IMG/VR virus record: IMGVR_UViG_3300002053_001113
Coordinates: 18,650-82,649 of that record
Reading direction: 5' to 3' (one strand)
Source of the DNA: a virus
Length of the DNA stretch: 64,000 nucleotides
Position numbers and translations under genes: made by a program. This document shows positions 5,045-48,380 of this stretch, piece by piece; position 1 is the stretch's first letter; each line of letters opens with the position of its first letter. The notes beneath the pieces are model-generated. The model had not been told where the DNA came from. It ran no database searches and saw nothing but the letters and a program-made list of their open reading frames with translations.

Positions 5045-5047
5045 AAA

Positions 5048-5368: not shown

Positions 5369-5369
5369 T

Positions 5370-7301: not shown

Positions 7302-7311
7302 GTGAGACAAA

Positions 7312-9396
7312 ATGAAAAAACTAATAATAATACCAATATGTTTGTTGTTTGTAATACCTTTTATTATGGCTGACCAGACTGTGAAAACTGTTGAAATACC
7401 TTTAGGATATGAGGCTATGGCAGGTGCTAATACAATTTATTATTATAATTTAAGTGTTGATTACCCAGATGGAATTGATAGAGTGTTGGCAATGGAAATA
7501 TTAGTTAAAGGAGATTATGCTGCTAATACAATATCATATGCAGGATTTTTGGTTGATGATACAGTAGTATATTGCACACCATCACAATGGACTATTTATT
7601 TAACATCAAATAATTATGAAATGAGTTTTGATTGCACACCGTTATTACAAAGTGCTAATTGGCAAGGTGGAAATATAACTTTTGTAATGATGAGTGATAC
7701 GCTTTCTGCTAATGTAAAAACAAGAGTTAAATTAACATATTACAATAATCCATTAGCCAGTATGATTGTAACTGGAACTTATTATGAAAGTGGCGATATT
7801 GGAAGAGTTTATGTTCAAGTGGCTGATGATGGAGTTCCAGTTACCAATGCAAGTTGTTATGCTACTATTTATGCACCAGACTATACTATATGGGCTGATA
7901 GTCAATTATTAGTTGAACTACCAGGTGAATCAGGTATGTATGTTTATCCATTTGTAGCACCCAACGAGACTGGTGTTTATGGCATAGCTGTGAGTTGTCA
8001 GTATGATTATAGTACATTTTGGGTATATCAGGCAGATGATATTGATTATGTTGATTATACTGTAACACTTGGTACTTGGGATGGAGGAGCTGCTATTAAT
8101 TTAAATGATTATGCTGATGGTTTGTATATGGCGTTTACATCAGGAGGAGGAGCAACAAAAAGTGTTGATGTATATTATGATTTTGATATAACTGGTAAAG
8201 TAACTATAGATAATACAACAGATATATATTTACATTGGTTGGGAGAGGCTACAGGTACACCAACACTTACTATGTATTGGTGGAATTGGACAAGTGGTGT
8301 TTGGGTAACTTTTCCAGACACATTAACACTTTCAGGAAAAGGAGGAACAGCTGCACCAACAGGCGCTGATGACTATTTATCAAGCAAATTTTTGTTTGAC
8401 AATTATAATGATGTTATAAATAGTAGCAATATTATTAGAGTTAGAACACTGCTGGGGGGACCAGCAATTTTTAATTATTGGCATAATTGGTTGGCGTTAC
8501 GTTTTAACTCACCATCTTCATCAACCTTAAGCCAAATTAGAGGTGGGGGAGAGATAAATGTAAAAAACAGATTAGAGGATATACCGTTTAATGTTTGGAA
8601 TTATACAAACAGAACGCTAACAGCAACAGGACAACATTGGGTAGGAAAAACTGAATATGTACCAAATGAGATAGGAAAGGTAGTTATTAGAGCTATTGAT
8701 TCTAATGGAGAACCATTGGAGGGAGCTGATTGTGAGGTGGGTGTAGTTTATCCAAATAATACTTTTTATATTAATAGAAGTAATATGACTGAGTGGGCAG
8801 GTAATATAACTGGTATTTATTATTTTGATTTCCTTGTTCCAGATGTTTCAGGAATATATACTTATGGTGTTGATTGTTTTAAAGGTGGAAAAGATTATTA
8901 TATGTTAAATACGTTCCACGTGGTTGTTCCAGAAGTTTATGCAGTAAATAATATAACATCTGAGGAGATTTGGAATTATACAAATAGAAATTTAACTTAC
9001 TATCCACCAACCACAACTGCAGAAGGTGTTTGGAATTATACAAATAGAACGTTGACATATTATGAAGATGTTACAAATTATACCTTAATTCCAATTGATG
9101 TTTGGAATTATGCAAACAGGACACTAACGTATTATGATGTAAATAATATAACACCAAATGATATCTGGGCATTTATTAATAGAAATTTAACTTACTACCC
9201 ACCAACAACAACTGCAGAGCAAATTTGGAATTACACAAACAGGAATTTAACTTATTATGAGGATACAACAAATTACACAAGAATACCAGATGATGTATGG
9301 GGTTATAGTGGTAATGTTACAAGTAATTTATTAGCACAATTTGCAACAGACATTTGGGGCTATGTGGCAAGATATACACACGGGGTGGTGATATAA
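7312..9396 (+). CDS. Secreted protein with tandem VWNYTNRTLTYY repeats
   Basis: 694 aa with an N-terminal signal peptide (MKKLIIIPICLLFVIPFIMA). The N-terminal half looks like beta-rich Ig-like domains. From about residue 425, and densely after 545, there are at least seven copies of a repeat of the type (D/E)xxWNYTNRxLTYY spaced 18-25 residues, many carrying an N-x-T sequon (NYT, NRT). The repeat tract would form a regular glycosylated stalk. No membrane anchor. Likely a second virion surface fibre. Short direct DNA repeats underlie the tract, so copy number may vary. Confidence 0.65.
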   Translation: MKKLIIIPICLLFVIPFIMADQTVKTVEIPLGYEAMAGANTIYYYNLSVDYPDGIDRVLAMEILVKGDYAANTISYAGFLVDDTVVYCTPSQWTIYLTSNNYEMSFDCTPLLQSANWQGGNITFVMMSDTLSANVKTRVKLTYYNNPLASMIVTGTYYESGDIGRVYVQVADDGVPVTNASCYATIYAPDYTIWADSQLLVELPGESGMYVYPFVAPNETGVYGIAVSCQYDYSTFWVYQADDIDYVDYTVTLGTWDGGAAINLNDYADGLYMAFTSGGGATKSVDVYYDFDITGKVTIDNTTDIYLHWLGEATGTPTLTMYWWNWTSGVWVTFPDTLTLSGKGGTAAPTGADDYLSSKFLFDNYNDVINSSNIIRVRTLLGGPAIFNYWHNWLALRFNSPSSSTLSQIRGGGEINVKNRLEDIPFNVWNYTNRTLTATGQHWVGKTEYVPNEIGKVVIRAIDSNGEPLEGADCEVGVVYPNNTFYINRSNMTEWAGNITGIYYFDFLVPDVSGIYTYGVDCFKGGKDYYMLNTFHVVVPEVYAVNNITSEEIWNYTNRNLTYYPPTTTAEGVWNYTNRTLTYYEDVTNYTLIPIDVWNYANRTLTYYDVNNITPNDIWAFINRNLTYYPPTTTAEQIWNYTNRNLTYYEDTTNYTRIPDDVWGYSGNVTSNLLAQFATDIWGYVARYTHGVVI

Positions 9397-9397
9397 A

Positions 9398-9961
9398 ATG
9401 GATGAAAGAACGCCAGTGCATAGAATAGAAGGATTAGGTAGACAACAGCTTCCACCAGAGTTAATGCCTCGTCAAAGAAGAGCTTTACAACAACAAATGG
9501 CGCCAAATCCATTTGCTGTTGAACAATATAGAAATATTGGTCTGCCTGATATGCCAGTAAGTTTTGGTGGGGGTATGACTGAAACTATGTTGAACAATAG
9601 CGAGGTTCCTGAAGAGATTAGGAATAGGTTTTGGTATATATTCCATAAAGATAATGTATTAACATTTTTAGATGAGGACAGAAAGGAGAGTAAGTTATTA
9701 AATTATGATATTATTAAAATTGATATATTGAATAGTATTCCATATTATGACTACACGTTTGAACAGGAATTACAGTTTGATATGTTGAGAAATGTTTTAG
9801 AGACTAAATTAGATAGAGCATTAGGATTTAAAGGCCAGAATATTAAAAATGAAAGAATAATGCTTCAATCACAATTTAGTGAACAGAGACATATAAGTGA
9901 AACAGGAGATGGAGGACCAATTAAAGAAGGGTTCTTTAAACGTTTGCTTGGCAGAAGGTAA
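9398..9961 (+). CDS. Soluble protein in structural operon, unknown
   Basis: 187 aa, no signal peptide. N-terminal third is Pro/Gln/Met/Arg-rich and probably disordered; the middle (about 65-150) looks globular, acidic and helical; a basic C terminus (FKRLLGRR) follows. Starts 1 nt after the fibre gene. Possibly an internal particle or assembly protein. No family recognised. Confidence 0.6.
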   Translation: MDERTPVHRIEGLGRQQLPPELMPRQRRALQQQMAPNPFAVEQYRNIGLPDMPVSFGGGMTETMLNNSEVPEEIRNRFWYIFHKDNVLTFLDEDRKESKLLNYDIIKIDILNSIPYYDYTFEQELQFDMLRNVLETKLDRALGFKGQNIKNERIMLQSQFSEQRHISETGDGGPIKEGFFKRLLGRR

Positions 9962-9977
9962 ATAGGGGGTTTTAGAA

Positions 9978-10637
9978 ATGGCGTTAGAATGGTTGACAAA
10001 TATTTATCTATGGATAGGAATATCATTATTGTTTATATTGTTATTTGGAATATTAATGGTATTTTTAGTAATCTTGGCGAAGAAGACACACGCAATCGTG
10101 GAGTTTAAAGCTTGGAGAAAAGGAAAACCAATTGCTTTATTCTTTTTAGAAAATAGATATTGTGAGTGGAAGCCTGTTATACCCGAGGCAGGTATAATAC
10201 AAGATGACAATTATGGTTCCTTTATAATAAATGAAAGAGCTACTTATGTTGATAAAAGAACAAAGGCTGTTTTAATTCCTTTTGATGCTTCATTTGGTGC
10301 AAGTGTAAATGTGCATGCAGCAAAGTTAGCAGATGATTTACAATATGTAGTAAAAGATGAAGAGGAGCTAAAAAAATTACGTTATGCTATAGCACACAAT
10401 TTAATTGATGACAACGTGACTATAACAGCACTTAAAACAAGCATACATTTTGGAGCAGTTAAAAATATGATGACTGCACTAATACCACATAATATAAGTG
10501 CTAAAATTGAGAAGATAGTTGCTTCAAGAATGAGAAATTATGGTAAAATTAATGTGCCACATATAGCACTTTTATTTGCTGCTATATTAGGTGCAATTAT
10601 AATTGGGTATTTAATAATAAGAGTAGCAGCTAAATAA
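9978..10637 (+). CDS. Membrane protein with cytoplasmic domain between two TM segments
   Basis: 219 aa. TM segment at about residues 10-33, a ~150-residue soluble domain, and a C-terminal TM segment (about 196-215). A GGGGG-containing SD lies 8-12 nt upstream. The central domain is unrecognised. Its place between two soluble structural-operon proteins suggests an assembly or egress role at the membrane, by context only. Confidence 0.65.
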   Translation: MALEWLTNIYLWIGISLLFILLFGILMVFLVILAKKTHAIVEFKAWRKGKPIALFFLENRYCEWKPVIPEAGIIQDDNYGSFIINERATYVDKRTKAVLIPFDASFGASVNVHAAKLADDLQYVVKDEEELKKLRYAIAHNLIDDNVTITALKTSIHFGAVKNMMTALIPHNISAKIEKIVASRMRNYGKINVPHIALLFAAILGAIIIGYLIIRVAAK

Positions 10638-10638
10638 A

Positions 10639-11307
10639 ATGGCAACAGCAACTGGACCTCCAGCAGCAAGTTATAAATTTAACACCTTTCAGGAGATTAA
10701 GTCTCATTCATCTATTTTGTATAATGAAAGAATGGCAATTCTTTTTTATTTGTTAGATATGAGAAGTATTGAAATGAATAGAGACTTTAGCGTTCATAGT
10801 ATGTTGGAGGTTAGGGCAATATTAAAACAGATTTATAAGAATATAAGAATGTTGATACGTAACAACCCAACAGTTAGGGCGACATTAAACTTGGAGACAA
10901 AAGACCCAGGCATTTACATAACTGATTTTGCTATGGGCACAATTGATAGAATGATTGAATATTGTGATACCAATGAATATACTACAAGGAGAATTTATAT
11001 TATTATTAATGAGCTTAATAGGTTAGAGATGTTAATGAAGGACATTTTACAATACTTCCATTACTTTATACGTCCTGATTTCAGGCAAAAACCAGATATT
11101 GAGATTGCTACTGAAAGCTATAAAGAAATAGCTGATAAACGTACTATTGAAGAATTAAAAGAGATTGTTGGAAAATCACACACTATTGATTTTGAAAATT
11201 TAGGAACAAGTAGAGTGGAATTAACACAGGAAATAGAATATGATAAAGTTGTTGATGGTCCTGAGGATGAGGATGAAGACGAAGATAATACACTTGATTC
11301 TAGTTAA
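10639..11307 (+). CDS. Helical protein with acidic C-terminal tail
   Basis: 222 aa, mostly helical, ending in a strongly acidic run (EDEDEDEDN). Starts 1 nt after the preceding gene and ends just before late promoter L2. Acidic tails like this occur in assembly chaperones and DNA mimics, but no family is recognised. Confidence 0.6.
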   Translation: MATATGPPAASYKFNTFQEIKSHSSILYNERMAILFYLLDMRSIEMNRDFSVHSMLEVRAILKQIYKNIRMLIRNNPTVRATLNLETKDPGIYITDFAMGTIDRMIEYCDTNEYTTRRIYIIINELNRLEMLMKDILQYFHYFIRPDFRQKPDIEIATESYKEIADKRTIEELKEIVGKSHTIDFENLGTSRVELTQEIEYDKVVDGPEDEDEDEDNTLDSS

Positions 11308-11340
11308 ATAAAAATATATATATAAAGAAGGAGACTAATA
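11306..11340 (+). promoter_or_regulatory. Late-class promoter L2
   Basis: AAATAAAAATATATATATAA then AGAAGGAGACTAATA, about 35-65 nt before the start at 11373. It is almost identical, including the trailing GAAGGAGACTAAT, to the minus-strand element at 56901-56933. Confidence 0.7.
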
Positions 11341-11372
11341 ATAGTTTTAAATTAGAGGGTAATGGAGAAAAA

Positions 11373-14300
11373 ATGAGAATTATACTATTGTTTCTACCTT
11401 TATTTATGTTAATTATATTGCCTTTTGTTTTGGCTAATCCAGCACCTCAAGCTGAGATTACAACTGATACAACATTAATAGGAGATGCAAATGTAACACA
11501 ATGGAATATAACAGGAGCAGTGCTTGATTGCCAAGGAGCAACTCTAACAAGAGAAAGTGGAACTGATTACATTATTCATTTAAATAATGGTGCAGTTGTG
11601 AAGAATTGCATCATAGATGACTCAGCTAGTTATCAGACAGTAACGATTGACCAAAGCAATGTTGTGTTTGATAATAACACAGTTATTATGAATTATGATG
11701 GTCATCCTTTCTGGATTGGTGCGGTTAGCAATGTAAATATAACAAATAACCATCTTGTTCAGTTATACGCTGATACTGGTTTTATTGGCAGCTCAGGGTC
11801 AAATAATATTAGGATAATTGGCAACAGATTAGACGGAGATGGTTCCAATCCAATAGGTATTTGGGGTGCTTCATATGATTATTTTATTGAGGATAATTAT
11901 ATTAATGGTAGCAGAGGAATAATTTTTGAGGAAGGGTCTCATGATATCACTATTAGGAATAATACATTTGTGAATTATGAATCTGGTAGGGCAATCACTT
12001 TTGATGAAAATCAGAATATTCATGATGTCTTGATTGAAGACCATTATGTATCAGGAACAGGTCAATTTATTTATGCTACAAATGCAAGTAACATAATGAT
12101 AAGAGATAATATCTGGCAGGATGCCAATCCAAACAATTTTATTATGAGATTTGGTGATGGTAATAACCTTACTGTGTATAACAATACATTTAATAATTTA
12201 ACCTTTGTAAATCCAGGAACTGATGTACGTATTATTGAATTTGATGGTGGTAATTTTAATAATGTTTTAGTTCAAGATAATTATATTAATAATATTGTGG
12301 TTAAAGATTATGATACTATACTTTCAACAACTGGGAATATGGTTAATTTTACAATTGATGGTAACTATATTAATAATATTTGGTGGCCAGTGTGGAGTGA
12401 TGATACAATACACGTTCTTGAAATAACATCACAGAATAATAATACTTATATAACAAATAATCATATATCAAATGTTACAAATAATAATGCTAGCAATGGT
12501 GGCTTAATTCATATGAGAAATGATAATTTTAATATTGTGATAGATAACAATACATTTGCTGATTGTGTTTGGTATTCTGATGATAATTTTATTTGGTATG
12601 ATGTACTTAACTTGGAGGGGGTTGGTATTAATGTAACTAATAATATATTTGAGGATTTTTATATGTATGGTAGTGATAATTATAATAACATAATTAATAT
12701 CCACAATGCTTACAATATGTTAATTGATGGAAACACCTTTCAACGTTTATATGCACCTGAGGGAATACTTAATATTGGAACTGCAGATAATATAATTGTA
12801 TCTAATAATATTTTTACACAGTTTGGTGACCAGGGAGGTAGTATGTTTGGAACTGGTAGTTCTTCAACTTATTTATTATTTAAAGATAACAATTGGTCTT
12901 ATACTAATAATAGTGCTATGTTTTGTGGTAATTACATACTTAATATGACTGGAAACAGATTTAATAATCTTTTTATAGAGCAAGATATTAATATATTTTG
13001 TTTGCAACCAAATGATACCATAACTTATAATGTTTTTAATGATATAACATATACAAGTGGGCAATTTTTTAATTTAGCAAGTGGTAGTAATTATTGGATT
13101 AATTATAATAATTTTAGCAATATTGATTTTATTAATGGATATCAGTTACTTTGGGACCAAGCAGATACTACTGATGTAGAATTTGTAGGAAATAGATTAA
13201 TTAATATAACAGGAACATCAGGAGTTATACACCCTAATGGTGATAATTATTTAATTGAGGATAATTTATTTCAAAATTTTGATGGTTGGGCATTATTTTT
13301 TGATAAAGGAGATAATTATATAGTAAGAGAAAATAGATTTATTGATACAGGAACAATTGCAATGAATTCTAATAGTGGTGATTATCTAGAAAATTATTTG
13401 TTTGAAGATAATTTATTTCAAGATATAATCAATGATACATATATGGGAGGAGCACTTTTTTTCCATAATATAACTTGGAATAAAAATAATTTTAGCATAA
13501 CCCGTAATTGTCTTGATATTTCTGGGGCATCACATTATTGTTTTTGGAATGGTGTGAGAGGGTTTAATAGTTTTACAAATAATAATTTTTTAACTAATGG
13601 TTTTAATATGAGTTGGTCTTTTCCAGCATCAGTAATATTATTTGATACAGACCTTTTTGAAGAAGTATTGGTAGAAAACAATACAGGACCTTTTAGTATA
13701 GTTCCAAGGTTAAGATATGGTAGTGATATGAATTTGACAGTTAGAAATAATAATATTGTTTATAATTATTTTCCAGAACATTCTTATTATGAGTATAATG
13801 CACAGGAGGCGTTTATCTATTTATATGAATATAGTGGGGAGACTGATACAGTTTATAATGTACTTTATGAAGGAAACACGTTTACTTCAAATGGTGATAG
13901 TACTATGATTTACCCAAGATTAATATCTCCTGATGATAATGTTTTAATAAATGGAAATACATTTAATGGCGATATTGTGTATATATTTAGGACAGCAAAC
14001 CAAGAGAATTATATTACTTATAGTGGAAATACATTAAATAATGTAAATGTTAATATGATACCATTCTTTGATTTTAATATATCATCATCACATGATTTTT
14101 TTAGTAAGGCAGATAGAATTGATTTAGATGCTAGACACATTTGGGGTGGTAATATAGCAGGAATAACAGGAGATATGAATGATTTACAGATTGGCAATGT
14201 GGTACTGTTACCAGCTAATACCAATGTAAATTTGTTAAATTTAGTTTTAGAGGCTCCAATACTTAATAATGGTACAAATAATAGTTTTAATGTAGAAGGA

Positions 14301-14939
14301 ATGACTTATGTAAATATAACCAATTATGTAGAAGAAGATGAAAATCAAACTCCGGAATTTACTGGAAATACAACCAATTTGGCTGTTAATGTTAATATAC
14401 AAAATGTCTCATTAGTTTTAGATAATAACCAAGGCACTATTGAATGGGAGCAACCTGTAAATTTAACTGTTAATGGAAATATTGATGCTATAGTTGAAAT
14501 AGGTACCAATACTATTGAGGTTAAAACAAATCTTAATCCAAGTATGAATAAACCAGCAAGATTGACATTTAAAGATTTAACCTATACAAATGTTGACCAA
14601 TTTGATGTATATAAAAATGGTGTAATTTGTACATCAAGCGAATGTTATGATGAGGAATTTGTTGGTAACTATTATAGGTTGAGAGTTAGTAGTTTTAGTA
14701 ATTTTACCTTACGTAATAGTTTTGATATGAATACTTATTTAGGAGTAAGAGATGATTTGTTTGTGATATTAGGGGCGTTTGCTTTCTTGGTAGTTATGAT
14801 TGGTGCTGCTATTGTATTAATGATACTTACTGGAAGCTTTGATACCACAAGCACATTAAGTATTATATTAGTTGCAGCATTAGGTTTTGCACTTTTAATG
14901 GCTGTATTAATGGCTATATTAACTAACTTTGTGGTATGA
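11373..14939 (+). CDS. Giant right-handed beta-helix surface protein with C-terminal membrane anchor
   Basis: 1188 aa. Signal peptide (cleavage near ...LANPAP), then about 25 or more degenerate parallel beta-helix rungs of the type (I/V)xxNxI.NI...NxF, typical of NosD/pectate-lyase-like folds. A small beta domain (about 1060-1120) is followed by two hydrophobic helices at the C terminus. Rich in N-x-S/T. Such beta-helices often bind or cleave polysaccharide, but no catalytic triad could be identified. The C-terminal ~110 residues are homologous to those of the next gene, a shared anchoring module. Likely a host-surface or S-layer interaction protein. Confidence 0.7.
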   Translation: MRIILLFLPLFMLIILPFVLANPAPQAEITTDTTLIGDANVTQWNITGAVLDCQGATLTRESGTDYIIHLNNGAVVKNCIIDDSASYQTVTIDQSNVVFDNNTVIMNYDGHPFWIGAVSNVNITNNHLVQLYADTGFIGSSGSNNIRIIGNRLDGDGSNPIGIWGASYDYFIEDNYINGSRGIIFEEGSHDITIRNNTFVNYESGRAITFDENQNIHDVLIEDHYVSGTGQFIYATNASNIMIRDNIWQDANPNNFIMRFGDGNNLTVYNNTFNNLTFVNPGTDVRIIEFDGGNFNNVLVQDNYINNIVVKDYDTILSTTGNMVNFTIDGNYINNIWWPVWSDDTIHVLEITSQNNNTYITNNHISNVTNNNASNGGLIHMRNDNFNIVIDNNTFADCVWYSDDNFIWYDVLNLEGVGINVTNNIFEDFYMYGSDNYNNIINIHNAYNMLIDGNTFQRLYAPEGILNIGTADNIIVSNNIFTQFGDQGGSMFGTGSSSTYLLFKDNNWSYTNNSAMFCGNYILNMTGNRFNNLFIEQDINIFCLQPNDTITYNVFNDITYTSGQFFNLASGSNYWINYNNFSNIDFINGYQLLWDQADTTDVEFVGNRLINITGTSGVIHPNGDNYLIEDNLFQNFDGWALFFDKGDNYIVRENRFIDTGTIAMNSNSGDYLENYLFEDNLFQDIINDTYMGGALFFHNITWNKNNFSITRNCLDISGASHYCFWNGVRGFNSFTNNNFLTNGFNMSWSFPASVILFDTDLFEEVLVENNTGPFSIVPRLRYGSDMNLTVRNNNIVYNYFPEHSYYEYNAQEAFIYLYEYSGETDTVYNVLYEGNTFTSNGDSTMIYPRLISPDDNVLINGNTFNGDIVYIFRTANQENYITYSGNTLNNVNVNMIPFFDFNISSSHDFFSKADRIDLDARHIWGGNIAGITGDMNDLQIGNVVLLPANTNVNLLNLVLEAPILNNGTNNSFNVEGMTYVNITNYVEEDENQTPEFTGNTTNLAVNVNIQNVSLVLDNNQGTIEWEQPVNLTVNGNIDAIVEIGTNTIEVKTNLNPSMNKPARLTFKDLTYTNVDQFDVYKNGVICTSSECYDEEFVGNYYRLRVSSFSNFTLRNSFDMNTYLGVRDDLFVILGAFAFLVVMIGAAIVLMILTGSFDTTSTLSIILVAALGFALLMAVLMAILTNFVV

Positions 14940-14963
14940 TAAATATATATATATAAAGGAAAA
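14938..14963 (+). promoter_or_regulatory. Late-class promoter L3
   Basis: AAATATATATATATAAAGGA begins right after the stop of the beta-helix gene and precedes the start at 15003 by about 45 nt. Same class as L1, L2, L4 and L5. Confidence 0.65.
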
Positions 14964-15002
14964 GACAAATTAATCTATTAAAGTAGTGGGTAGAGCGTTA
15001 AG

Positions 15003-16874
15003 ATGAGAGTGAAGACATTAATATTACCTTTATTTATACTATTTCTAGTACCCTTTGTTTTTGCTGCAGTACCAGTAATAGACACTGCTTTAATTAACAT
15101 TACAGCACCATCTCCAGTTGATGATTTGCCTGGTTATTGTAAGGCAAATGATAGTGATGGAGGAACACTTACGTATTATTATAGATGGTATAGTAATGGT
15201 GTTTTAAGATATGAGTGGGTTGAGGAGAGCAGTGCTGTCCAGGGAGCACACAACGATGGTGTAGATAGAAAGTGGCCACATCTAATATATAACTTAACAG
15301 GAGATGATAGTTGGATTATGATTAGTGGCGCTAATAAAGATGAGGCAGAGGAGTTTTATGGATATAGATGGAATGGTACAGAATGGGTAGCAAACAGTAG
15401 TGTAGTTGCTGGTTTAAATACTGTATTATCAGGGAATCAAGATGCGTATATAGCAGGTGGCTATAATGTAAGTGGAGATGGAAAATATGATGTGTGCATT
15501 ACGGATTATAGTCTAAACAATAATAATATGCAATGGAATGGTACAGAATGGGTAGCGGGTGGAACAACTTGTATGTCTTCAATTGGTACAGGACCATACC
15601 CAAACGTTATGGAAAATTTATTTAATAATGGTGACTGGTATGGTTTTACTCATACTTGTTGTAGTGGAGGCACAAACGGATGGACAAGGTCGCCAGGAGA
15701 TGTAGGTTGGACAAGTGACAACACAGTATTTTCAACAATAATTGCAAGTGGCCACCACACTATATATGGTGCTTATATAAATAATGTTCCAACTGTTGTG
15801 TTTTTACACTCATCTTGGCACACAAACAGATTTTATGAATGGAATGGAACTGCTTTTGAATATAAACCACTTATGGACCTTTATACAGGACATTACTCCA
15901 AGTTTGGAGGACAATTTGTTTATGATTTTAATAATGAGGGAAAGTGGAGGATTTTTGAAGGACACTACAATAGCGCGCAATTTAGGTCTTATTTGTTTAA
16001 TGATTTATTTAATGTGGCAAGTGTACCAGAAAGCACATTATATAATGTTGAAAACATATCCTCTGATAGGACTTCCAATAGTGAAAATTGGACGTTATCG
16101 TGTATGGCAAGTGATGGCACAAGCAATAGTAGTTGGCTAAACGATACTGTTGTGATTGAGGTTTGTCCTGAGACTGTAAGTAATATAACAGAAAACACAA
16201 ATTTATATGGTGAGGGTTGTGTTGTACAGACTGTGAACGTACAGGAGAATGGAAGAATTGATTGTGCAGGTGGAGGATTAACTGGCAGTGGAGGATTTAC
16301 TTTAGCATTAACTGGTGAGAATTCTGCCTTAACTAATTGTACTTTACAGAACGTGAATTTGGTGGTAGATGTGCCAAGTGGAGGCATAGTGTTTCCAACT
16401 TTAAATGCAACAATAACCGATACAACTAATAATATCGTTATACAGCCAAGGTCAATTTATGTTGATAGTACAGCATTACCAGATTTAGATGTACCAGCAA
16501 GTTTAACATTTAGGAATACTGGTTATACAACCTTGGAGCAATTTGATGTTTACAAAGATGGTGTTGAGTGTACAGATTGCGTTGAGGGTGACATAGTAAA
16601 TGGAACATTTAATATGAATGTAACAGGGTTTAGTAATTTTACATTAAGAGATGGAATTGATTATGCTACATATAAGACAGTAAGAGATGATGCTATATAC
16701 ATACTTGGAGTATTTGCTTTAGTTGTTGTTTTATTAGCTGCCACCTTTGTTGTTATGTTTGTTTTTGGCAAGATGGAGATTGATGTTTTACTACCTATTA
16801 TACTTGCCTTAGCAGCAGGAGCTGCTGTATTGATGGCTGTGTTTTATGTGATTGCGCAGGCTATGATAGTTTAA
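15003..16874 (+). CDS. Secreted lectin/propeller-like surface protein, C-terminal anchor
   Basis: 623 aa. Signal peptide (cleavage near ...FVFAAVP). The middle (about 70-340) has repeated (Y)xWNGTEW units (GYRWNGTEWVANS, MQWNGTEWVAGG, FYEWNGTAFEYK), which suggests a beta-propeller or similar repeat fold. Several cysteines, including CC. The last ~120 residues (from about LTFRNTGYTTLEQFDVYKDG) match the corresponding segment of the beta-helix protein, ending in two TM helices. Probably a paralogous spike that swaps the outer domain on a common anchor. Confidence 0.65.
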   Translation: MRVKTLILPLFILFLVPFVFAAVPVIDTALINITAPSPVDDLPGYCKANDSDGGTLTYYYRWYSNGVLRYEWVEESSAVQGAHNDGVDRKWPHLIYNLTGDDSWIMISGANKDEAEEFYGYRWNGTEWVANSSVVAGLNTVLSGNQDAYIAGGYNVSGDGKYDVCITDYSLNNNNMQWNGTEWVAGGTTCMSSIGTGPYPNVMENLFNNGDWYGFTHTCCSGGTNGWTRSPGDVGWTSDNTVFSTIIASGHHTIYGAYINNVPTVVFLHSSWHTNRFYEWNGTAFEYKPLMDLYTGHYSKFGGQFVYDFNNEGKWRIFEGHYNSAQFRSYLFNDLFNVASVPESTLYNVENISSDRTSNSENWTLSCMASDGTSNSSWLNDTVVIEVCPETVSNITENTNLYGEGCVVQTVNVQENGRIDCAGGGLTGSGGFTLALTGENSALTNCTLQNVNLVVDVPSGGIVFPTLNATITDTTNNIVIQPRSIYVDSTALPDLDVPASLTFRNTGYTTLEQFDVYKDGVECTDCVEGDIVNGTFNMNVTGFSNFTLRDGIDYATYKTVRDDAIYILGVFALVVVLLAATFVVMFVFGKMEIDVLLPIILALAAGAAVLMAVFYVIAQAMIV

Positions 16875-16900
16875 ATAAAAATATATATATAAAGGAAAAC
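16874..16900 (+). promoter_or_regulatory. Late-class promoter L4
   Basis: AAATAAAAATATATATATAA followed by AGGAAAAC, starting at the stop of the previous gene and about 40 nt before the ATG at 16930. Drives the small-protein cluster. Confidence 0.65.
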
Positions 16901-16929
16901 GTATAAATTTAAGTAAAGAGAACGTAAAA

Positions 16930-17070
16930 ATGAAGTTTAACCTGACATACAATAATATAAAATTTATGTCAGTTGTGGCTAAAGATGAGAATGCTGCTTG
17001 GGAACAAGTTAAAAAAGCAGGAATTAGAAATAAAAGTAATATGTTAAAATTAATTAAAGTTGAGGTGTGA
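16930..17070 (+). CDS. Small protein, 46 aa
   Basis: Begins ATG AAG TTT AAC and has the strand-helix pattern MKFNLTYNN...SVVAKDENAAWEQVKK. First gene after late promoter L4 and 1 nt before the next start, so likely translated. Unknown function. Confidence 0.5.
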   Translation: MKFNLTYNNIKFMSVVAKDENAAWEQVKKAGIRNKSNMLKLIKVEV

Positions 17071-17071
17071 A

Positions 17072-17329
17072 ATGGCCAAAAAGAATACAGATTTAATGAA
17101 AGAGGCTAAAGATGTAATGAAAGTTGGTGCTACTACAATGGTAGGACACGGAGTTCTTGCTGGACTGAGTAATGTACCAGGTATGCCTGCACAAGCTGGG
17201 CAGACTGCCAAAATTGCAGGCAGTGGATTAACATTAGTTAATGTTGGACAATTAGCTAAAAGTGGAATGACAGTAGTTAAGATGTTTGATACTGGAAAAA
17301 GTAAAAAACTTAAAAAGAGTTGGTGGTAA
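17072..17329 (+). CDS. Small Gly/Ala-rich amphipathic protein
   Basis: 85 aa from the ATG at 17072, which follows the preceding stop by 1 nt (a TTG 12 nt earlier is in frame but overlaps). Gly/Ala/Met-rich centre with weakly hydrophobic segments and a basic end (KSKKLKKSWW). Could associate with membranes or nucleic acid. Part of the late small-protein cluster. Confidence 0.55.
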   Translation: MAKKNTDLMKEAKDVMKVGATTMVGHGVLAGLSNVPGMPAQAGQTAKIAGSGLTLVNVGQLAKSGMTVVKMFDTGKSKKLKKSWW

Positions 17330-17331
17330 GA

Positions 17332-17544
17332 ATGGGTGTTGTGGAGAATATATTAGGTAAGAGACCAGAGTGGGCAGCTTCTGTGGCTTATGTTGATAAA
17401 CTTGCTAAGAAAGTACAAAAAAGATATAAAGTTAGCAAAGAAGATGCAAGAGATATACTTGATGAAGCAAGTGCTTATAATATTAATGACGAGGCAGACT
17501 TATTTTATGTTATTGAGGCAGAGATATTACCAAATTGGAGGTAA
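17332..17544 (+). CDS. Late small protein with N-terminal V-x-(N)ILGK motif
   Basis: 70 aa. Starts MGVVENILGKRPEW, resembling the MDPVKKILGK N terminus of four other late proteins at 18213, 55246, 55480 and 55621. The rest is helical (DILDEASAYNINDEADLF). ATG at 17332 chosen because it lies 2 nt after the upstream stop. Proposed to be a virion-cargo protein by motif and promoter class. Confidence 0.55.
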   Translation: MGVVENILGKRPEWAASVAYVDKLAKKVQKRYKVSKEDARDILDEASAYNINDEADLFYVIEAEILPNWR

Positions 17545-17550
17545 AACAAA

Positions 17551-17685
17551 ATGGCTAAGAAAAAATATGAGATGCCAACTGGTGTTGGGGCTGACCCATA
17601 TGATGTTGCTGAAGAAACTAAGAAGCCAGTTCAAAAGGCAACACCTGCAGGTATAGTAAACAAGATTTTAAAGAAAAAGTATTAG
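17551..17685 (+). CDS. Small basic protein, 44 aa
   Basis: MAKKKYEMPTGVG... ending PAGIVNKILKKKY. The C-terminal VNKILKKK resembles the VKKILGK motif that other cluster members carry at the N terminus. SD-like GGAGG lies 9 nt upstream. Unknown function. Confidence 0.5.
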   Translation: MAKKKYEMPTGVGADPYDVAEETKKPVQKATPAGIVNKILKKKY

Positions 17686-20496: not shown

Positions 20497-20742
20497 ATGG
20501 ACGAGGATGAAACAACCTTAAGAATGAATTTAGTTGAGATGGTTAATGACCTAAAAGGAAAAAGAATATTAAAAGAAACACTGGTTGGGTTTTTACATCA
20601 TTATGGTTTGGTGGAATACATACCTGAGGAAGATAAAAAACCAATAGGAATTAAATTTAACAACCAATATTATGCCAGGAGTGAACAAGGTGAGTATGTT
20701 AAGGTTAATTATATATTAGGTTTGGAGGAGGGTGAAAAATGA
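20497..20742 (+). CDS. Small acidic protein
   Basis: 81 aa, acidic N terminus (MDEDETTLRMNL), SD GGAGGG upstream, ATGA overlap with queE. It may simply be co-expressed. Unknown family. Confidence 0.55.
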   Translation: MDEDETTLRMNLVEMVNDLKGKRILKETLVGFLHHYGLVEYIPEEDKKPIGIKFNNQYYARSEQGEYVKVNYILGLEEGEK

Positions 20743-21398
20743 ATGTAAACGAGATATTTGAGAGCATACAAGGTGAAGGACCATTTACAGGCAAGCCTGC
20801 TGTGTTTGTGAGGCTGTGGGGTTGTATCAAACCATATTGTAGTTTCTGTGATACAAAATATGCTTGGAGCAACAAAAAGAAAGAAGCAAAAGGTATGGAC
20901 GTTAGTGATATCATAAAAAAGGTTGAGAAATATAAATCAAAATTTGTTGTAATAACAGGAGGAGAACCTTTTGCACAGGAAAAGGTTTATTATTTAATTA
21001 ACAGGCTATTAGGTGATGGATATAAAGTTCAAGTTGAAACAAGTGGAAAGGCAGAGATACTTAAAAATAGATTTGATGATTTTATGAGTGATAATTTAAG
21101 TATTATAATGTCACCAAAACAATACAATGGAAGATTTAAGGTATTTGACAATAAAACACTTGATGTAGCTGACGTTTATAAGTTTGTTGTTGAAAATAAA
21201 GAAGAGTTGAATAATGTAATTGAATTTGTAAGGTGGAATAATATTGAGAAAAAACGTGTATTCCTAATGCCTAAAGGTGCTACACGTAAGGAGCAGTTAA
21301 AGATTAGCCAACAAGTGATTAAGTGGTGTATTGATAATGGTTTTAATTTTTCAACAAGATTACATATATTAATTTGGGATAGAAAAAGAAAGGTGTGA
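20739..21398 (+). CDS. queE: 7-carboxy-7-deazaguanine synthase (radical SAM)
   Basis: 219 aa. QueE converts 6-carboxytetrahydropterin to 7-carboxy-7-deazaguanine. Diagnostic features: substrate loop SIQGEGPFTGKPAVFVRLWGC, radical-SAM cysteines C29, C34 and C37 followed by the QueE hallmark CDTKYAW, then ITGGEPF and the strand VETSGKAEI. Full length for the family. It pairs functionally with the FolE and QueD genes at 47-49 kb and the transglycosylase at 43.6 kb to make a modified base. It is far from them and on the other strand, in an early-class transcription unit. Catalytically complete, unlike the QueE-like protein at 47790-48380. Confidence 0.9.
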   Translation: MNVNEIFESIQGEGPFTGKPAVFVRLWGCIKPYCSFCDTKYAWSNKKKEAKGMDVSDIIKKVEKYKSKFVVITGGEPFAQEKVYYLINRLLGDGYKVQVETSGKAEILKNRFDDFMSDNLSIIMSPKQYNGRFKVFDNKTLDVADVYKFVVENKEELNNVIEFVRWNNIEKKRVFLMPKGATRKEQLKISQQVIKWCIDNGFNFSTRLHILIWDRKRKV

Positions 21399-26170: not shown

Positions 26171-26283
26171 TTTTCAATTACCCCCGTCACATATTTAAAA
26201 CTTTCAATTACATCATCTGGTGCATTTGTTTTAATTAACCAATCATAAACAACACCGTATTCGTCATCAAAATCTACACTCAT
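26167..26283 (-). CDS. Small acidic protein, 38 aa
   Basis: MSVDFDDEYGVVYDWLIKTN... ATGA overlaps at both ends tie it to the chain downstream of the E1-like gene. Unknown. Confidence 0.45.
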   Translation of the reverse strand: MSVDFDDEYGVVYDWLIKTNAPDDVIESFKYVTGVIEK

Positions 26284-26540
26284 TTTCTTTCCTCCATTAG
26301 TTTCCTTGCCTTTGCTAAGGCTTGTTTTTTAGTATTAAAAGCAAAATACTCACCTTTATCTTTTCCATCAGTTCTGCCTATCCAAACCCTATATTCTCCA
26401 TAATTTAACTTATATTCCTCGTCCTCCTCATAAACCAAAATTGTTTTTGGTATCTTATTTGATAGCGTAAAATATTCAACTGCAATCCAACTTTTGTCCT
26501 TTGGTTGTTCAACAACCTTTCCCCAATCTGTTAGTGCCAT
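26280..26540 (-). CDS. Small beta-rich protein with EA motif
   Basis: 86 aa, directly after the E1-like gene (1 nt). Contains EYRVWIGRTDGKDKGEYFAF then NTKKQALAKARKLMEE, a larger example of the strand-helix group. Possibly a target or adaptor for the ubiquitin-like system, by position only. Confidence 0.5.
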   Translation of the reverse strand: MALTDWGKVVEQPKDKSWIAVEYFTLSNKIPKTILVYEEDEEYKLNYGEYRVWIGRTDGKDKGEYFAFNTKKQALAKARKLMEERK

Positions 26541-27188
26541 TTAAATCATCTGTGGTAATGTATAATCTAAAGTTATAAAATTCTTTAATTCATAACCTTT
26601 ATAAGCTTGAACAATAGTATTGCAAACAAGACTGGCAACACCCAAAACGGTGAAAATAATTGCTCTCTCTGTGCAACGTTCCTGCACTGCCTCTTCATCT
26701 GTAAATAATGTCTCCTCATACAACGCTACTCTTTTTTTGCTTGTCATATCAACATTATAAACCTGTCCTTGTAGTCCTGCCATACGTGTATCAATAAACA
26801 ATTGAACCTTATCTCTCTTACAAGCATCAAATACAACTTTTCTTGCCTTCATTTTATCTACACAACAAATCACTATTTGACTGTCAAGTTTTTGTCCTTT
26901 GTATTCACCAAATGTTTCTACCTCTACCTCTTCATTAAACTCCTGCATCCAATCTCTGGTAGCTTTTGCTTTACGCAAACCAATATCACTTTCCGTAAAA
27001 AATTGATTTGGTAAGTTGTGTTCTTCAACTTTATCAAAATCATAAAGAGCAAATTTTTGCAAACCCATTTTTGCCAAACTTACTGCAACATAACTACCAA
27101 CTGCTCCACAACCAATAATAGCTATCTTGTTTTCTTGATAGTCATTTACATTTATAATTCCAATTTGTCTATCATATCTTTTTGCCAT
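26541..27188 (-). CDS. E1-like ubiquitin-activating enzyme (ThiF/MoeB family)
   Basis: 215 aa from the ATG at 27188, 1 nt after the JAMM gene stop. E1 features: N-terminal YDRQIG, Rossmann ATP loop GCGAVGSYVA (27-36), DFDKVEEHNLPNQFF (DxDxVexxNLxRQ-like, 50-64), CVDKMKARKVV (109-119), and a conserved-looking cysteine C172 in QERCTERAIIFT, a candidate thioester site. It would adenylate the C terminus of a ubiquitin-like protein. Last enzyme of the Ubl, E2-like, JAMM, E1 order. Compact, without a separate Cys or UFD domain, as in prokaryotic systems. Sulfur-carrier activation (MoeB-like) is less likely given the neighbours. Confidence 0.75.
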   Translation of the reverse strand: MAKRYDRQIGIINVNDYQENKIAIIGCGAVGSYVAVSLAKMGLQKFALYDFDKVEEHNLPNQFFTESDIGLRKAKATRDWMQEFNEEVEVETFGEYKGQKLDSQIVICCVDKMKARKVVFDACKRDKVQLFIDTRMAGLQGQVYNVDMTSKKRVALYEETLFTDEEAVQERCTERAIIFTVLGVASLVCNTIVQAYKGYELKNFITLDYTLPQMI

Positions 27189-27189
27189 A

Positions 27190-27816
27190 TTAAACACCAA
27201 AAAACGGCAGTCCTTTTCTTTTTGTAGTTTCAACAACTATAAAACCTGTTCCACCACAACAACCACATTCCTGCCAGTCTCTATCATCCTCTTCAACCTT
27301 TTCCTCTATCTCCTCATATATTTTTCCAACATCAACCTCTTTACTAAAATCTATTGGAACATCTAAAAATGGTTCAATGTCATCAACACTCACATAATTT
27401 CCATTTTTAAGTTTTGAATCTAATCTACACTTATAACTCATTCCCCCCTTTCTTATGTTGCCTTTAAATGCTACAACAATACCAAAACACATATCACTCA
27501 AATTGCATAAACGTTGAAAACATTTATCATCATCTTTACTCCAAAATGTATTCATAGTATTATGAGAATGCCACCAGCCTATTACACTACTCAACATCTT
27601 ACAACTGGCATTCTTTGTAAAGTCCATCATAGCTTTCTCACTAATCTCAAAATGTGAAGTTGTTTTTCTCTGTCCTAAAAGTATTGCCTTATTAACAACT
27701 AAATCGCCATTCTTCTTTATTTTACCTAATAACAAACCACCTATCTCTCCATCTTTTACATTACGAGAGTAAGCTTCCATATATCTATATGCCTTCTCCT
27801 TTATAATCACTGTCAT
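27190..27816 (-). CDS. JAMM/MPN+ (JAB) metalloprotease, deubiquitinase-like
   Basis: 208 aa. Full zinc-protease signature: E24 in GEIGGLLLGK, then H83-S-H85, seven residues, S93-x2-D96 (HSHNTMNTFWSKDD). Such proteases trim or remove ubiquitin-like modifiers. C-terminal extension with CGCCGG, perhaps a second metal site. Lies between the E2-like and E1-like genes with a 4-nt overlap upstream, as in bacterial Ubl/E2/JAB/E1 operons. Likely roles are maturation of the Ubl, whose C terminus extends beyond glycine, and deconjugation. Active-site residues all present. Confidence 0.8.
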   Translation of the reverse strand: MTVIIKEKAYRYMEAYSRNVKDGEIGGLLLGKIKKNGDLVVNKAILLGQRKTTSHFEISEKAMMDFTKNASCKMLSSVIGWWHSHNTMNTFWSKDDDKCFQRLCNLSDMCFGIVVAFKGNIRKGGMSYKCRLDSKLKNGNYVSVDDIEPFLDVPIDFSKEVDVGKIYEEIEEKVEEDDRDWQECGCCGGTGFIVVETTKRKGLPFFGV

Positions 27817-28454
27817 TTTTTCACCTTTATGTATGGTTTTAAAATTTTAATTGCATCCTTTTTAATTTTACCACTAAATTCAACTAATTCTCCTCGTCTA
27901 TTATATTTCTTATGAAGTTTTTCTAACTTTGGAATTAGTTTGTTATTCCTAATTTCAGTTGCCCATTTTGCTTGCAACCTAATCATATCATAATAAAAAG
28001 CTTCAGTTTCACCTCTCTCGGGGTCTCCATCTTCTAACAAATCTAATATTGTTCTCGCCAGCCAATACCAGTCTAAATTATGTTTCATAATATAAACATC
28101 ATCTTCAGCACTACCCCAACAAATCTTATTTCCCCAGTGGTCTTTAATGTGATAGTGATGCACTCCTTCCCCGCCTCCAACACCTCCATTTACTCTTTTT
28201 AAATAAACTCTCAAAACCTCTTCACCTACTCGTTGTGATATTCTAATTTTAAAACAGCCAATAGAACAAAGAAAAACTCCTTTATATTTTCGTCCTTTAG
28301 GAACAGGATTAATAGGATTTGTGATTATAGTAATGCCACGTGATGTCTGCTTAACAGAATTTATTCTTCCATCTTCTTTTAACATTTTTGCTGCTTGTGC
28401 CTTATTATACATTACCTCATACATTCTCCGTTTCTTATAAAAGTGCATAGCCAT
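27813..28454 (-). CDS. E2-like (UBC-fold) ubiquitin-conjugating candidate
   Basis: 213 aa. The segment GEGVHHYHIKDHWGNKICWGS (about 95-115) resembles the E2 core, where an H-P-N-like strand is followed by dG-x-IC-x-G with the catalytic cysteine; here C112. Then a helix DWYWLARTILDLLEDGDPERGE, like the E2 helix after the active site, and a long charged helical tail. Assignment rests on this local pattern and on the position between a Ubl-like gene and JAMM/E1 genes. Two possible starts (28454 and 28448) both lie just after a T-tract with no clear SD, which suggests low translation. Confidence 0.5.
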   Translation of the reverse strand: MAMHFYKKRRMYEVMYNKAQAAKMLKEDGRINSVKQTSRGITIITNPINPVPKGRKYKGVFLCSIGCFKIRISQRVGEEVLRVYLKRVNGGVGGGEGVHHYHIKDHWGNKICWGSAEDDVYIMKHNLDWYWLARTILDLLEDGDPERGETEAFYYDMIRLQAKWATEIRNNKLIPKLEKLHKKYNRRGELVEFSGKIKKDAIKILKPYIKVKK

Positions 28455-28459
28455 TTTAA

Positions 28460-28495
28460 AAATAAAAAAAAAGGTAACTGGAATTACCAGCTACC
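28460..28495 (-). terminator. Terminator-like hairpin overlapping the Ubl stop codon
   Basis: GGTAACTGG (28473-28481)/CCAGCTACC (28487-28495) form a stem with one mismatch; on the coding strand it is followed by TTTTTTTTTATTTTT. The last codons and stop of the Ubl gene are in the stem, and the E2-like gene starts right after the T-tract. It should reduce read-through into E2/JAMM/E1. Confidence 0.65.
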
Positions 28496-28774
28496 TCTTA
28501 CTTTTGTGGTTACAGCAATTTTACTGAATTTGTGCGCCTTTTCAGAAAGTGTAACCTTCTTCCAAGTTCGTCCTCTTTCAGGTATTGCCTCAACCTTAAT
28601 TTCACTGTCGTCCGTAGGTATGTCAGCTTTTTCCAAAGCACGTTTAATTGTGTCAGACTTGGTCACCTCAATAAAGATTGGGTGTGCTCCAATTCTTCTA
28701 ACCTCAACTAATTTGCCTTTAAGCCTATCTACCTCTTTGGCTTTCAGTTTTTTTAGTTCTGTCTTTGTTGGCAT
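28484..28774 (-). CDS. Ubiquitin-like (beta-grasp) modifier candidate
   Basis: 96 aa from the ATG at 28774, chosen for its strong SD (GGAGGGTGGT 4 nt upstream); an in-frame start 36 nt earlier lacks one. Lys-rich N-terminal helix, then a beta-grasp-like order: FIEVTKSDTIKRALEKA, SEIKVEAIP, KVTLSEKA, KIAVTTKVRGSW. The end RGSW would need trimming of two residues to expose glycine, a job for the JAMM protease. First gene of the cassette, with its own promoter near 28835. Fold assignment is by pattern only. Confidence 0.5.
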   Translation of the reverse strand: MPTKTELKKLKAKEVDRLKGKLVEVRRIGAHPIFIEVTKSDTIKRALEKADIPTDDSEIKVEAIPERGRTWKKVTLSEKAHKFSKIAVTTKVRGSW

Positions 28775-28825
28775 TAATACCACCCTCCATTTTTTAATCA
28801 CGTTTTCCACACGTGATATCTCACT

Positions 28826-28845
28826 ACATAATTATATATAGTAAG
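28826..28845 (-). promoter_or_regulatory. TATA-like promoter of the ubiquitin-like operon
   Basis: On the minus strand ACTATATATAATTATGTAG, about 55-70 nt before the Ubl start at 28774. It lacks the AATCAAAACA upstream part of the early class, so this operon may be under different control. CACGTGTGG follows downstream. Confidence 0.45.
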
Positions 28846-43555: not shown

Positions 43556-44743
43556 TCAAAAATTAAATATTCCAACTTGTTTTGTTTTTTCTAAATGTTG
43601 TGGTATTAACCAATTTTCAAACTTCTTTACTGCATTATAAACTCCATTCTCTATTGCAAAATCAATAAACTCTATGCTCTTTAATGTCTTCTCATTAATG
43701 TTTATAGCACGCAAATATTCTAAAAACTTCTCTTTATCATTAACAATATTATTTAATAGGTTATTATAATAAATATATTGATATAAATTATGTAAAGAGA
43801 TTAAAGTACCAGCATATATGTCTGTTCTATTTAAATCTTCAATGTCAACAACCGTCCTACATACAGGACACTGGCACGGCAATTCTTTTAAGTGAGGATT
43901 TATTTTTTTAAACTTCTCACCAAAACTAAAATTAGGACCTATATCAAATGGCATATAATAGGTACGGTAAATACTTCCAATATTATAACTGCTACTATCA
44001 TATGTCACTCCTATGTGTTGTAACTTACTTGCTGCATACACAATCGTTGGAACAACGTGTTTTCCACTTGTACCAAAAAAATGTAACCATTTAAAACTCT
44101 CTTTCTCAAATTCTCCCTTTTCCCACAAAAACATAAAACCCATTGCTTGTATCATTGGGTCCCATGGAGGCTTCATTCCAATTGCCCAACCATCAAACTT
44201 AAAATCCTTTACACGTTCATACCATATTTCCATTAACTTAATGTTTTCACCATGTAAAACATTTAACAACTTTGCCTTATAGTTCTTTCTCTCCTTTTCA
44301 AACAACTCAAAGTTTTTTGCACTCTCCTCAAGTGAGGCTTTAAACTCATCATAAGTTGGAGCCTTATCAAGTGTTGGAGGAATATCCAAGTTCATCATTA
44401 TATCACAGTTTTCTTCCTGCCATCTCAAACTATCTATTGGTTGTATCTTACAAGGTTGTCCTCTTATCTTAAAAGAGGCAATTTGAAACCCTGCACTATC
44501 CCCAACTAATATTTTATCTTTTGGATAACCAATCATTTCTCTAAAATTAGTACTGGCGTTTTTGCCAACACCATAGATACCATAATAACAACTTTGTAAA
44601 GCAACGTTGTGTTCATAATGACTATCCTTAGTAAAGAACTTCATATCATATTCCTTTCCATCTTTACCTTTATATTTCAGTCCTCTATTCCAAACACTAT
44701 TAAACTGCTCGCCTATTGCTGGAACAAACTCTGCTTTACTCAT
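43556..44743 (-). CDS. dpdA: DpdA-like (TGT-family) DNA 7-deazaguanine transglycosylase
   Basis: 395 aa. TGT superfamily: GDSAGFQI (D82, the D-S-G-G-F-Q motif), NLDIPP, VLHGEN, GWAIGM, and a complete zinc site C290-x-C292-x2-C295-x22-H318. Cellular TGTs swap guanine for a 7-deazaguanine in tRNA; viral DpdA homologs do so in DNA. The genome encodes FolE, QueD and QueE but has no tRNA-modification context, so DNA modification is the likelier role. Overlaps the 156 aa gene by 4 nt and sits beside a glycosyltransferase. A tRNA archaeosine enzyme is the alternative, but it lacks the PUA domains of archaeal TgtA. Confidence 0.75.
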   Translation of the reverse strand: MSKAEFVPAIGEQFNSVWNRGLKYKGKDGKEYDMKFFTKDSHYEHNVALQSCYYGIYGVGKNASTNFREMIGYPKDKILVGDSAGFQIASFKIRGQPCKIQPIDSLRWQEENCDIMMNLDIPPTLDKAPTYDEFKASLEESAKNFELFEKERKNYKAKLLNVLHGENIKLMEIWYERVKDFKFDGWAIGMKPPWDPMIQAMGFMFLWEKGEFEKESFKWLHFFGTSGKHVVPTIVYAASKLQHIGVTYDSSSYNIGSIYRTYYMPFDIGPNFSFGEKFKKINPHLKELPCQCPVCRTVVDIEDLNRTDIYAGTLISLHNLYQYIYYNNLLNNIVNDKEKFLEYLRAININEKTLKSIEFIDFAIENGVYNAVKKFENWLIPQHLEKTKQVGIFNF

Positions 44744-47152: not shown

Positions 47153-47806
47153 CTAACCTCCATTCTGATGTACCCACCTCAAAAACTCAGCTCTTGATGC
47201 TGGGTCATCTTTAAATGCTCCAATTAATTTTGTAGTTGTCATTTTTCCTTTCTTCTTTGCTCCTCTCATAGTTTTACATAAATGCTCTGCTTCCATAACC
47301 AATCCCATAGCAATGGGCTCTATACATGGAGTATCCACAATTTCATATTCATCTTTACCAGTATAGGTGGCAGGAATAGTGAGCGCCTCCCACAGGAACT
47401 CAACTATTTCATGAACTAATCTTTCTTGTATCTGTAGCTTTGCACTGTAATAGTCCACAACCCTCGCCACCTTACTCAACCCCAAAATTTTTCCTTGGGG
47501 ATGAGGAATATAAGCAAAATAATATTTTCCAAAAAATGGTACCATGTGATGCTCACAATGAGAATAAAAATGCCCCTCATCAGTTATCATTTCATCATAA
47601 ATTATGTTATCCTTACCATTCATAAAAGTTGTAATCTTTGGTTTTTGTTTTTTATCATAACCTCTAAATATTTCCTTCCACATTTTAACAACACGTTTTG
47701 GAGTATCTTTTAATCCTTCTCGTTTAACATCTTCACCTATCTGTATTAATATATTTTCTATTAATTCCTCTTTAATTTGTTTTCTAACATTATTCGTTGT
47801 TGTCAT
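47153..47806 (-). CDS. folE: GTP cyclohydrolase I (FolE type)
   Basis: 217 aa. First step of 7-deazaguanine synthesis: GTP to dihydroneopterin triphosphate. Hallmarks: GLKDTPKRVVKMWKEIFRGY, zinc ligands C84, H87 and C177 (SHCEHHMVPF and EAEHLCKTMRG), GLSKVARVVDYY and QIQERL. Full length. Overlaps the QueE-like gene by 17 nt. Type IA enzymes are bacterial or eukaryotic in style, whereas most archaea use MptA (IB), so the gene was probably acquired from bacteria or phages. Confidence 0.9.
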   Translation of the reverse strand: MTTTNNVRKQIKEELIENILIQIGEDVKREGLKDTPKRVVKMWKEIFRGYDKKQKPKITTFMNGKDNIIYDEMITDEGHFYSHCEHHMVPFFGKYYFAYIPHPQGKILGLSKVARVVDYYSAKLQIQERLVHEIVEFLWEALTIPATYTGKDEYEIVDTPCIEPIAMGLVMEAEHLCKTMRGAKKKGKMTTTKLIGAFKDDPASRAEFLRWVHQNGG

Positions 47807-48380
47807 TAATCTCCACCTCTATCCCTATATTATAACCATAATTTTTTACTAACAAAATAAACTCACTATACCAAACATCATCAATATTTTCAATTGCAGG
47901 TTTTATAAAAACTTGCCCTTTTGGTACTCCAAAATTTTGTGCTATCATTGCTGATTCATCAATATCATCTTTTGTTTTAATATTAAATATGAAATAGGTA
48001 TTACAACCAACAAAAAATTCTATGATATTCGGTTTAATTCTATCCTCATATTTTATATTACTATGCTTTAGTTTTAGATTAACATAATAAATTACATTCT
48101 CAAAGGTTCCAATTTTAACAGGCCTTATGGTACCATTGGTATGTATTTCAATCTTAACAGTTGGATTTAATTTAATTATTTTGGTAACCAATTTAGCTAC
48201 TGCATCTCTTTGTAAAAAAGGCTCCTGCCCAGTCAAAACAACATACGGAAAATGTACAGCTTGTTTTGCTATATCAACCTCGTCAATACTAACCCCTCTC
48301 TCATCAAGTTCAATAAAAAAGGCACGTCTTCCAACATTAATAAACCTCGTGTAACTCACATAGGTCTTTTTAATCTTCAT
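47790..48380 (-). CDS. QueE-like protein lacking the radical-SAM cysteines
   Basis: 196 aa. Clear QueE layout in the middle (YVVLTGQEPFLQRDAVAKLV for the GGEP motif; VKIEIHTNGTI), but the N-terminal RFINVGRRAFFIELDERGV stands where the C-x3/4-C-x2-C cluster loop should be, and no cysteines are present there. It therefore cannot bind the usual 4Fe-4S cluster. Located between QueD and FolE. It may be a non-catalytic partner or a repurposed enzyme; the intact QueE is at 20.7 kb. Confidence 0.65.
   Translation of the reverse strand: MKIKKTYVSYTRFINVGRRAFFIELDERGVSIDEVDIAKQAVHFPYVVLTGQEPFLQRDAVAKLVTKIIKLNPTVKIEIHTNGTIRPVKIGTFENVIYYVNLKLKHSNIKYEDRIKPNIIEFFVGCNTYFIFNIKTKDDIDESAMIAQNFGVPKGQVFIKPAIENIDDVWYSEFILLVKNYGYNIGIEVEINDNNE

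Follow-up and report, generated by a model that had tools for sequence, protein, structure and literature searches.

Four adjacent minus-strand genes in a viral genome fragment (IMG/VR record IMGVR_UViG_3300002053_001113, positions 18,650 to 82,649, a stretch of 64,000 nt referred to below as the window) raised the question whether a virus may carry its own ubiquitin-like (Ubl) conjugation system, comprising a Ubl, an E2-like protein, a JAMM protease and an E1-like enzyme. Prokaryotic Ubl conjugation is known chiefly from cells (SAMP, Bil, and CBASS) and plasmids (PRTRC). If the set is complete, archaeal and bacterial viruses could tag proteins by themselves.

Gene layout and transcription signals

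The order in the direction of transcription, Ubl, E2-like, JAMM and E1, all on the minus strand, was borne out together with the coordinates by an ORF check of the window. The Ubl gene (nt 28484–28774) encoded a protein of 96 aa (P0004) with the tail KVRG-SW, that is, Gly94 plus two residues; the E2-like gene (nt 27813–28454) encoded a protein of 213 aa (P0003) with a candidate active-site residue, C112, in HHYHIKDHWGNKICWGSAE; the JAMM protease gene (nt 27190–27816) encoded 208 aa including E24, H83, H85, S93 and D96; and the gene for the E1/ThiF-like activating enzyme (nt 26541–27188) encoded about 215 aa (P0001) with YDRQ, GCGAVGS and C172. The start codon of the E1 gene was the ATG at nt 27188, while a TTG at nt 27236 opens a longer ORF that overlaps the JAMM gene. 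The E2-like and JAMM genes shared an ATGA overlap, and a single base lay between the JAMM and E1 genes. A fifth gene of 86 aa (nt 26280–26540, minus strand) began one base past the E1 stop codon, leaving no gap. Its product matched no known family in Pfam; the gene is probably co-transcribed with E1 and may belong to the module as its fifth member.

Ahead of the Ubl gene, the sequence showed a TATA-like box, TATATATAA (nt 28832–28840, minus strand), a single site of weak consensus outside the 12 strong promoter matches described below, and a Shine-Dalgarno-like sequence, GGAGGGTGG (nt 28780–28788, minus strand), preceding the start codon. Directly at the Ubl stop codon lay an intrinsic-terminator-like hairpin with a U-tract (nt 28469–28499, minus strand; 13 pairs, -18.2 kcal/mol, z -6.2). 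Since this strong hairpin parts Ubl from the other three genes, the cassette is not one uniform operon: E2-like, JAMM and E1 genes were tightly coupled, and Ubl had its own TATA-like box and terminator. The gene order given in the first-pass annotation stands; the hairpin and the fifth gene are additions to it. Ubl may be made in excess, with read-through or a weak start site supplying the enzymes.

Assignment of the four proteins

The identities of E1 and JAMM are firm as sequence-based assignments. P0001 matched Pfam ThiF (E = 8.7e-33) and had, as E1 of 216 aa, one ThiF domain only in Pfam; its best matches among solved proteins were UBA7, ubiquitin E1 and UBA5. The E1 cysteine was invariant in a 9-row alignment (C172 counted from Met, corresponding to C173 in P0001). 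The JAMM protein matched Pfam Prok-JAB (2.8e-8) and JAB (1.1e-7), its residues E24, H83, H85, S93 and D96 were invariant in a 10-row alignment with viral relatives, and a profile of the viral JAMM family picked up Rpn11-like and JAMM1 proteases. Catalytic residues are thus kept across distant viral cassettes, as had been supposed for C172 of E1, and Ser93 can be added to the four JAMM residues previously listed. In the E1 tree, P0001 joined two other loci, L012 and L058 (89/84), with long branches, and this grouping was not used for ancestry. The JAMM protein (nt 27190–27816) ended in ECGCCGGTGF; this CxxCxGxG-like motif may coordinate zinc.

No Pfam family was matched by P0004, the call of which had been based on pattern. 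With a profile built from phage Ubls, P0004 being left out, it was the sole significant ORF (E = 1.4e-5 among 802 ORFs and 4.2e-5 among 2,337); upon removal of the closest relative from the profile, the values were 2.1e-5 and 6.2e-5, respectively, and none of 5,000 shuffles matched its score. This independent profile strengthened the earlier call. The family Ubl profile, which includes P0004, matched SAMP2 at 3.2e-8 and TtuB and MoaD-type proteins weakly. By profile, P0004 fits a beta-grasp Ubl with a C-terminal glycine. Tails in the family fell into three groups: GG followed by 0–3 residues, a single G followed by 0–2 residues, and -NA with no terminal glycine. The window Ubl belongs to the second group (VRG-SW), in which Gly94 stands singly before Ser-Trp instead of as GG. 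Residues past the glycine fit a protease-processed precursor, as trimming by JAMM would need, and since the phage Ubls ending in -NA have no C-terminal glycine, some members of the family may use another chemistry.

P0003 matched no family in the Pfam search, E2 families included, and an exact-peptide search of viral contigs with P0003 returned no relatives. Its C112 and G114 did not vary when it was aligned with 9 and with 14 phage cassette proteins, and the protein preceding JAMM in the relatives usually bears a motif like [HNF]P[HY][IVL]...CxG. An earlier profile of long E2 regions ranked P0003 first without significance (E = 0.35). A shorter core profile centred on the cysteine, built from 26 cassette proteins with P0003 left out, gave P0003 as the sole match above threshold, with C112 and G114 aligned (E = 0.0019 among 802 ORFs and 0.0055 among 2,337); the 0.0019 came from a second attempt after the 0.35 and carries the weight of one. 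None of 5,000 shuffles reached the score. The AlphaFold2 model of P0003 was poor (pLDDT 47), the secondary structure running in the order strands, Cys, helices; that of a phage relative (pLDDT 76, pTM 0.75) showed a helix, a strand meander, the Cys and two helices. In Foldseek searches, the phage model matched no solved structure significantly, the nearest member of the UBC superfamily being the Tsg101 UEV (E = 0.56), and in BFVD it matched uncharacterised viral proteins only. E2 is thus the best reading of P0003 from sequence and synteny: the conserved C112 and the profile match uphold the earlier call, whereas no significant match to UBC was obtained with either AlphaFold2 model, so that the UBC fold is not demonstrated.

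Genomic setting, relatives and proposed function

An archaeal BRE/TATA-type promoter, ATCAAAAnnTTTATATAGT, occurred in 12 copies in the window with up to 2 mismatches, versus 0.30 expected, at nt 4867, 19761, 25607, 31481, 33395, 33982, 39571, 46793, 51842, 54690, 61217, and 61736, most of these sites closely preceding genes. These archaeal-type promoters make an archaeal host likely, though not proven, in agreement with the probable archaeal virus of the first-pass annotation. The clamp loader resembled archaeal RFC and T4 gp44 to a similar degree. A sister virus, IMGVR_UViG_3300035698_013589, had left-arm and replication genes in common with the window virus (about 30–80% identity). At one mismatch, ATCAAAAnnTTTATATAGT was not found in the sister record, so the promoter argument is drawn from the window virus only. 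The cassette was absent from the sister virus, as searched in the genome with E1, E2-like protein and Ubl and by BLASTP with all four proteins, and no counterparts were found there for the genes at 17–36 kb of the window. Its absence from a relative that shares the core genes marks the cassette as accessory. The sister record (L097) also contained one ORF of 5,294 aa (nt 1798–17682), whose relatives in the window virus include several large proteins that look secreted. Genes for TGT, GTP cyclohydrolase I (FolE), PTPS and radical SAM proteins were observed in the window at nt 20739–21398, 43556–44743 and 47153–48877; they perhaps constitute a viral preQ0/archaeosine-type nucleotide (DNA) modification pathway.

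With E1 as the sole bait, nine loci and then 41 were obtained from viral contigs; 14 were obtained from genome contigs, four being cassettes and the others inspected being thiamine loci; and 87 records were obtained from annotated phages, mostly phages of Bacteroides and Flavobacterium, many of them crAss-like. JAMM lay near E1 in 44 of the 46 E1 loci examined, a set including a few near-duplicates. All four parts, which the first-pass annotation had proposed to look for elsewhere, were recognised in 26 of the 46; this count involves some circularity, as part of these loci went into the Ubl and E2 profiles. Relatives were found in phages, crAss-like phages among them, and in Clostridia and Wolfebacteria contigs. 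The cassette is therefore not peculiar to the window virus, and its relatives are common in phages.

In crAss-like phages, the cassette block lay between the primase and uracil-DNA glycosylase (UDG) genes. Two such loci, L051 (nt 1779–5654) and L052 (nt 1565–5696), had Ubl-like, E2-like, JAMM and ThiF genes in this place, annotated as thiamine biosynthesis or hypothetical; their Ubl-like proteins had a beta-grasp-like start and a long tail after KIRSGA or KIKSGA. A Candidatus Wolfebacteria MAG contig (L058, nt 3646–7085) had the order E2-like, JAMM, E1 and Ubl, the Ubl tail being GGN. In Clostridia-type cassettes with Ubls ending in -NA or -CA, a reverse transcriptase (RT) gene (RVT_1) followed E1, at nt 6199–7302 in L004, 7302–8465 in L024, 7008–8186 in L055, 6991–8139 in L056 and 2432–3673 in L057; PADLOC classified the RTs of L004, L024 and L055 as RT_II-A-like.

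These features make it reasonably probable that the cassette is a virus-encoded module for Ubl conjugation and deconjugation. Ubl would be produced, probably in excess, from its own transcription unit; JAMM would cut off the last two residues (Ser-Trp) and expose Gly94, which would be adenylated by the minimal E1. The E1 may take the Ubl onto its conserved Cys and hand it to C112 of the E2-like protein for attachment to lysines of targets, from which JAMM could strip it again. The most likely targets are proteins of the host or of competing elements rather than virions, since the cassettes map to accessory regions or replication regions, near primase, UDG, ERF or RT genes, and the sister virus does without one; gene location argues for this only mildly. 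According to PMC4895103, proteasomes of Haloferax degrade Ubl-modified TBP2, and by analogy redirected degradation might be one route. If the module reading is true, it would also account for the "thiamine biosynthesis" ThiF genes found beside "metalloprotease" genes in many gut phages, and since culturable crAss-like phages carry relatives, it would be practical to test.

The same parts might instead serve a sulfur carrier, with E1 thiocarboxylating the Ubl in the manner of ThiS, MoaD or TtuB, JAMM freeing or recycling it, and P0003 accepting the sulfur, perhaps for nucleotide or cofactor modification. A minimal, ThiF-like E1, the weak matches of TtuB and MoaD-type proteins to the family Ubl profile, and the TGT, FolE, PTPS and radical SAM genes of the virus would suit such a role, which is nevertheless unlikely: no sulfurtransferase or thiolation enzyme adjoined the cassette, the P0003 relatives keep CxG in an E2-motif-like context and always together with JAMM, and the Ubl precursors extend past the glycine.

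Within the conjugation reading itself, a special case differing in the target alone would be a Bil-like antiviral system for superinfection exclusion, tagging structural proteins of rival viruses. Its gene order and domain set equal those of Bil (PMC11354881) and the location is accessory, but a Ubl of single-domain size, a minimal E1 and the lack of the CEHH motif render it doubtful. Tagging of the virus's own virion or assembly proteins has a precedent in the lambda- and T1-type tail operons, in which a JAB peptidase accompanies a Ubl domain (PMC1779556), so that phage assembly has used such parts; however, the cassette was not beside structural genes in the window virus or in crAss-like phages, and the sister virus, with left-arm and replication genes in common, lacks it, making such use very improbable.

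Comparison with known systems

BilABCD consists of BilA with two Ubl domains, BilB with a CEHH motif, a JAMM protein, and BilD with an inactive and an active adenylation domain as well as a Cys domain (PMC11354881). The window cassette shared with it the domain set of Ubl, E2, JAMM and E1 in the same order. Unlike BilA, the window Ubl with its 96 aa has space for one beta-grasp domain; unlike BilB, P0003 does not fit CEHH (Cys, Glu at +6, His at +8, and His at +13), having D118, V120 and H125 at these positions; and unlike BilD, the window E1 is minimal, with a single ThiF domain. The likeness to Bil drawn by the first-pass annotation is thus one of gene order and of domain set, and does not extend to membership.

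The PRTRC plasmid operon (proteins C, F, B, A, and ThiF) likewise has the order Ubl, E2-like, JAB and ThiF, and the motif PPYFNTWDHGRICIGSAQ of PRTRC protein B (Prok-E2_D) resembles HHYHIKDHWGNKICWGSAE of P0003. In a profile comparison with protein B as a candidate parent family, P0003 gave an E of 0.0034 but a probability of 9.5%, and the phage core a probability of 0.9%. In contrast to PRTRC, no ParB-type, E or F proteins were encoded among the genes adjoining the window cassette, the window JAMM had no DUF2016 domain, and the window E1 scored 43.6 bits on TIGR03736 (PRTRC ThiF), for which the cut-off is 144.75. In Pfam, P0004 was not Prok_Ub and P0003 was not Prok-E2_D, whereas a true PRTRC set matched both strongly. 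As for CBASS type II (Cap2/Cap3), the likeness reported by PADLOC was limited to the E1 part; the E2 and E1 of the window were separate genes, not fused, and no CD-NTase gene was found among the neighbouring ORFs. Membership in Bil, PRTRC and CBASS was thereby ruled out feature by feature.

The E1/JAMM pairs of phages, including crAss-like ones, which carry the annotations "thiamine biosynthesis protein" and "metalloprotease domain", were similar in the order Ubl, E2-like, JAMM and E1, in the YDFDKVE motif of E1 and in the CxG of the E2-like protein. They differed in the size of the E2-like protein (317–719 aa versus 213 aa in the window), in their Ubl tails and in E1 sequence (about 28–37% identity). 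Likeness to the archaeal SAMP system and to the JAMM proteases of Borgs was seen in the SAMP2-like beta-grasp profile, the JAMM1/Rpn11-like protease and the archaeal setting, although SAMP conjugation needs no E2 (PMC11354881). Many JAMM deconjugases and one SAMP are described for Borgs in the accessible part of PMC12660748, which reports no four-gene cassette like that of the window.

No description of phage-borne E1-E2-Ubl-JAMM sets was found in the open-access literature, preprints excepted, and prior description is possible; an overview of jumbo phages (PMC7824862) makes no mention of E1-like, E2-like or JAB proteins. Prokaryotic E1-E2-JAB-Ubl operons were first predicted in PMC1779556, the accessible part of which names for phages only the Ubl plus JAB of lambda- and T1-type tails. 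It is put forward tentatively, at somewhat less than even chance, that a class of virus-encoded Ubl conjugation systems with an E2-like family of its own, not found described in that literature, occurs across bacterial and archaeal viruses and modifies proteins of hosts or competitors. Since the cassette fails the tested defining features of Bil, PRTRC and CBASS, it is classed among the prokaryotic E1-E2-JAB-Ubl operons as a new variant carried by viruses.
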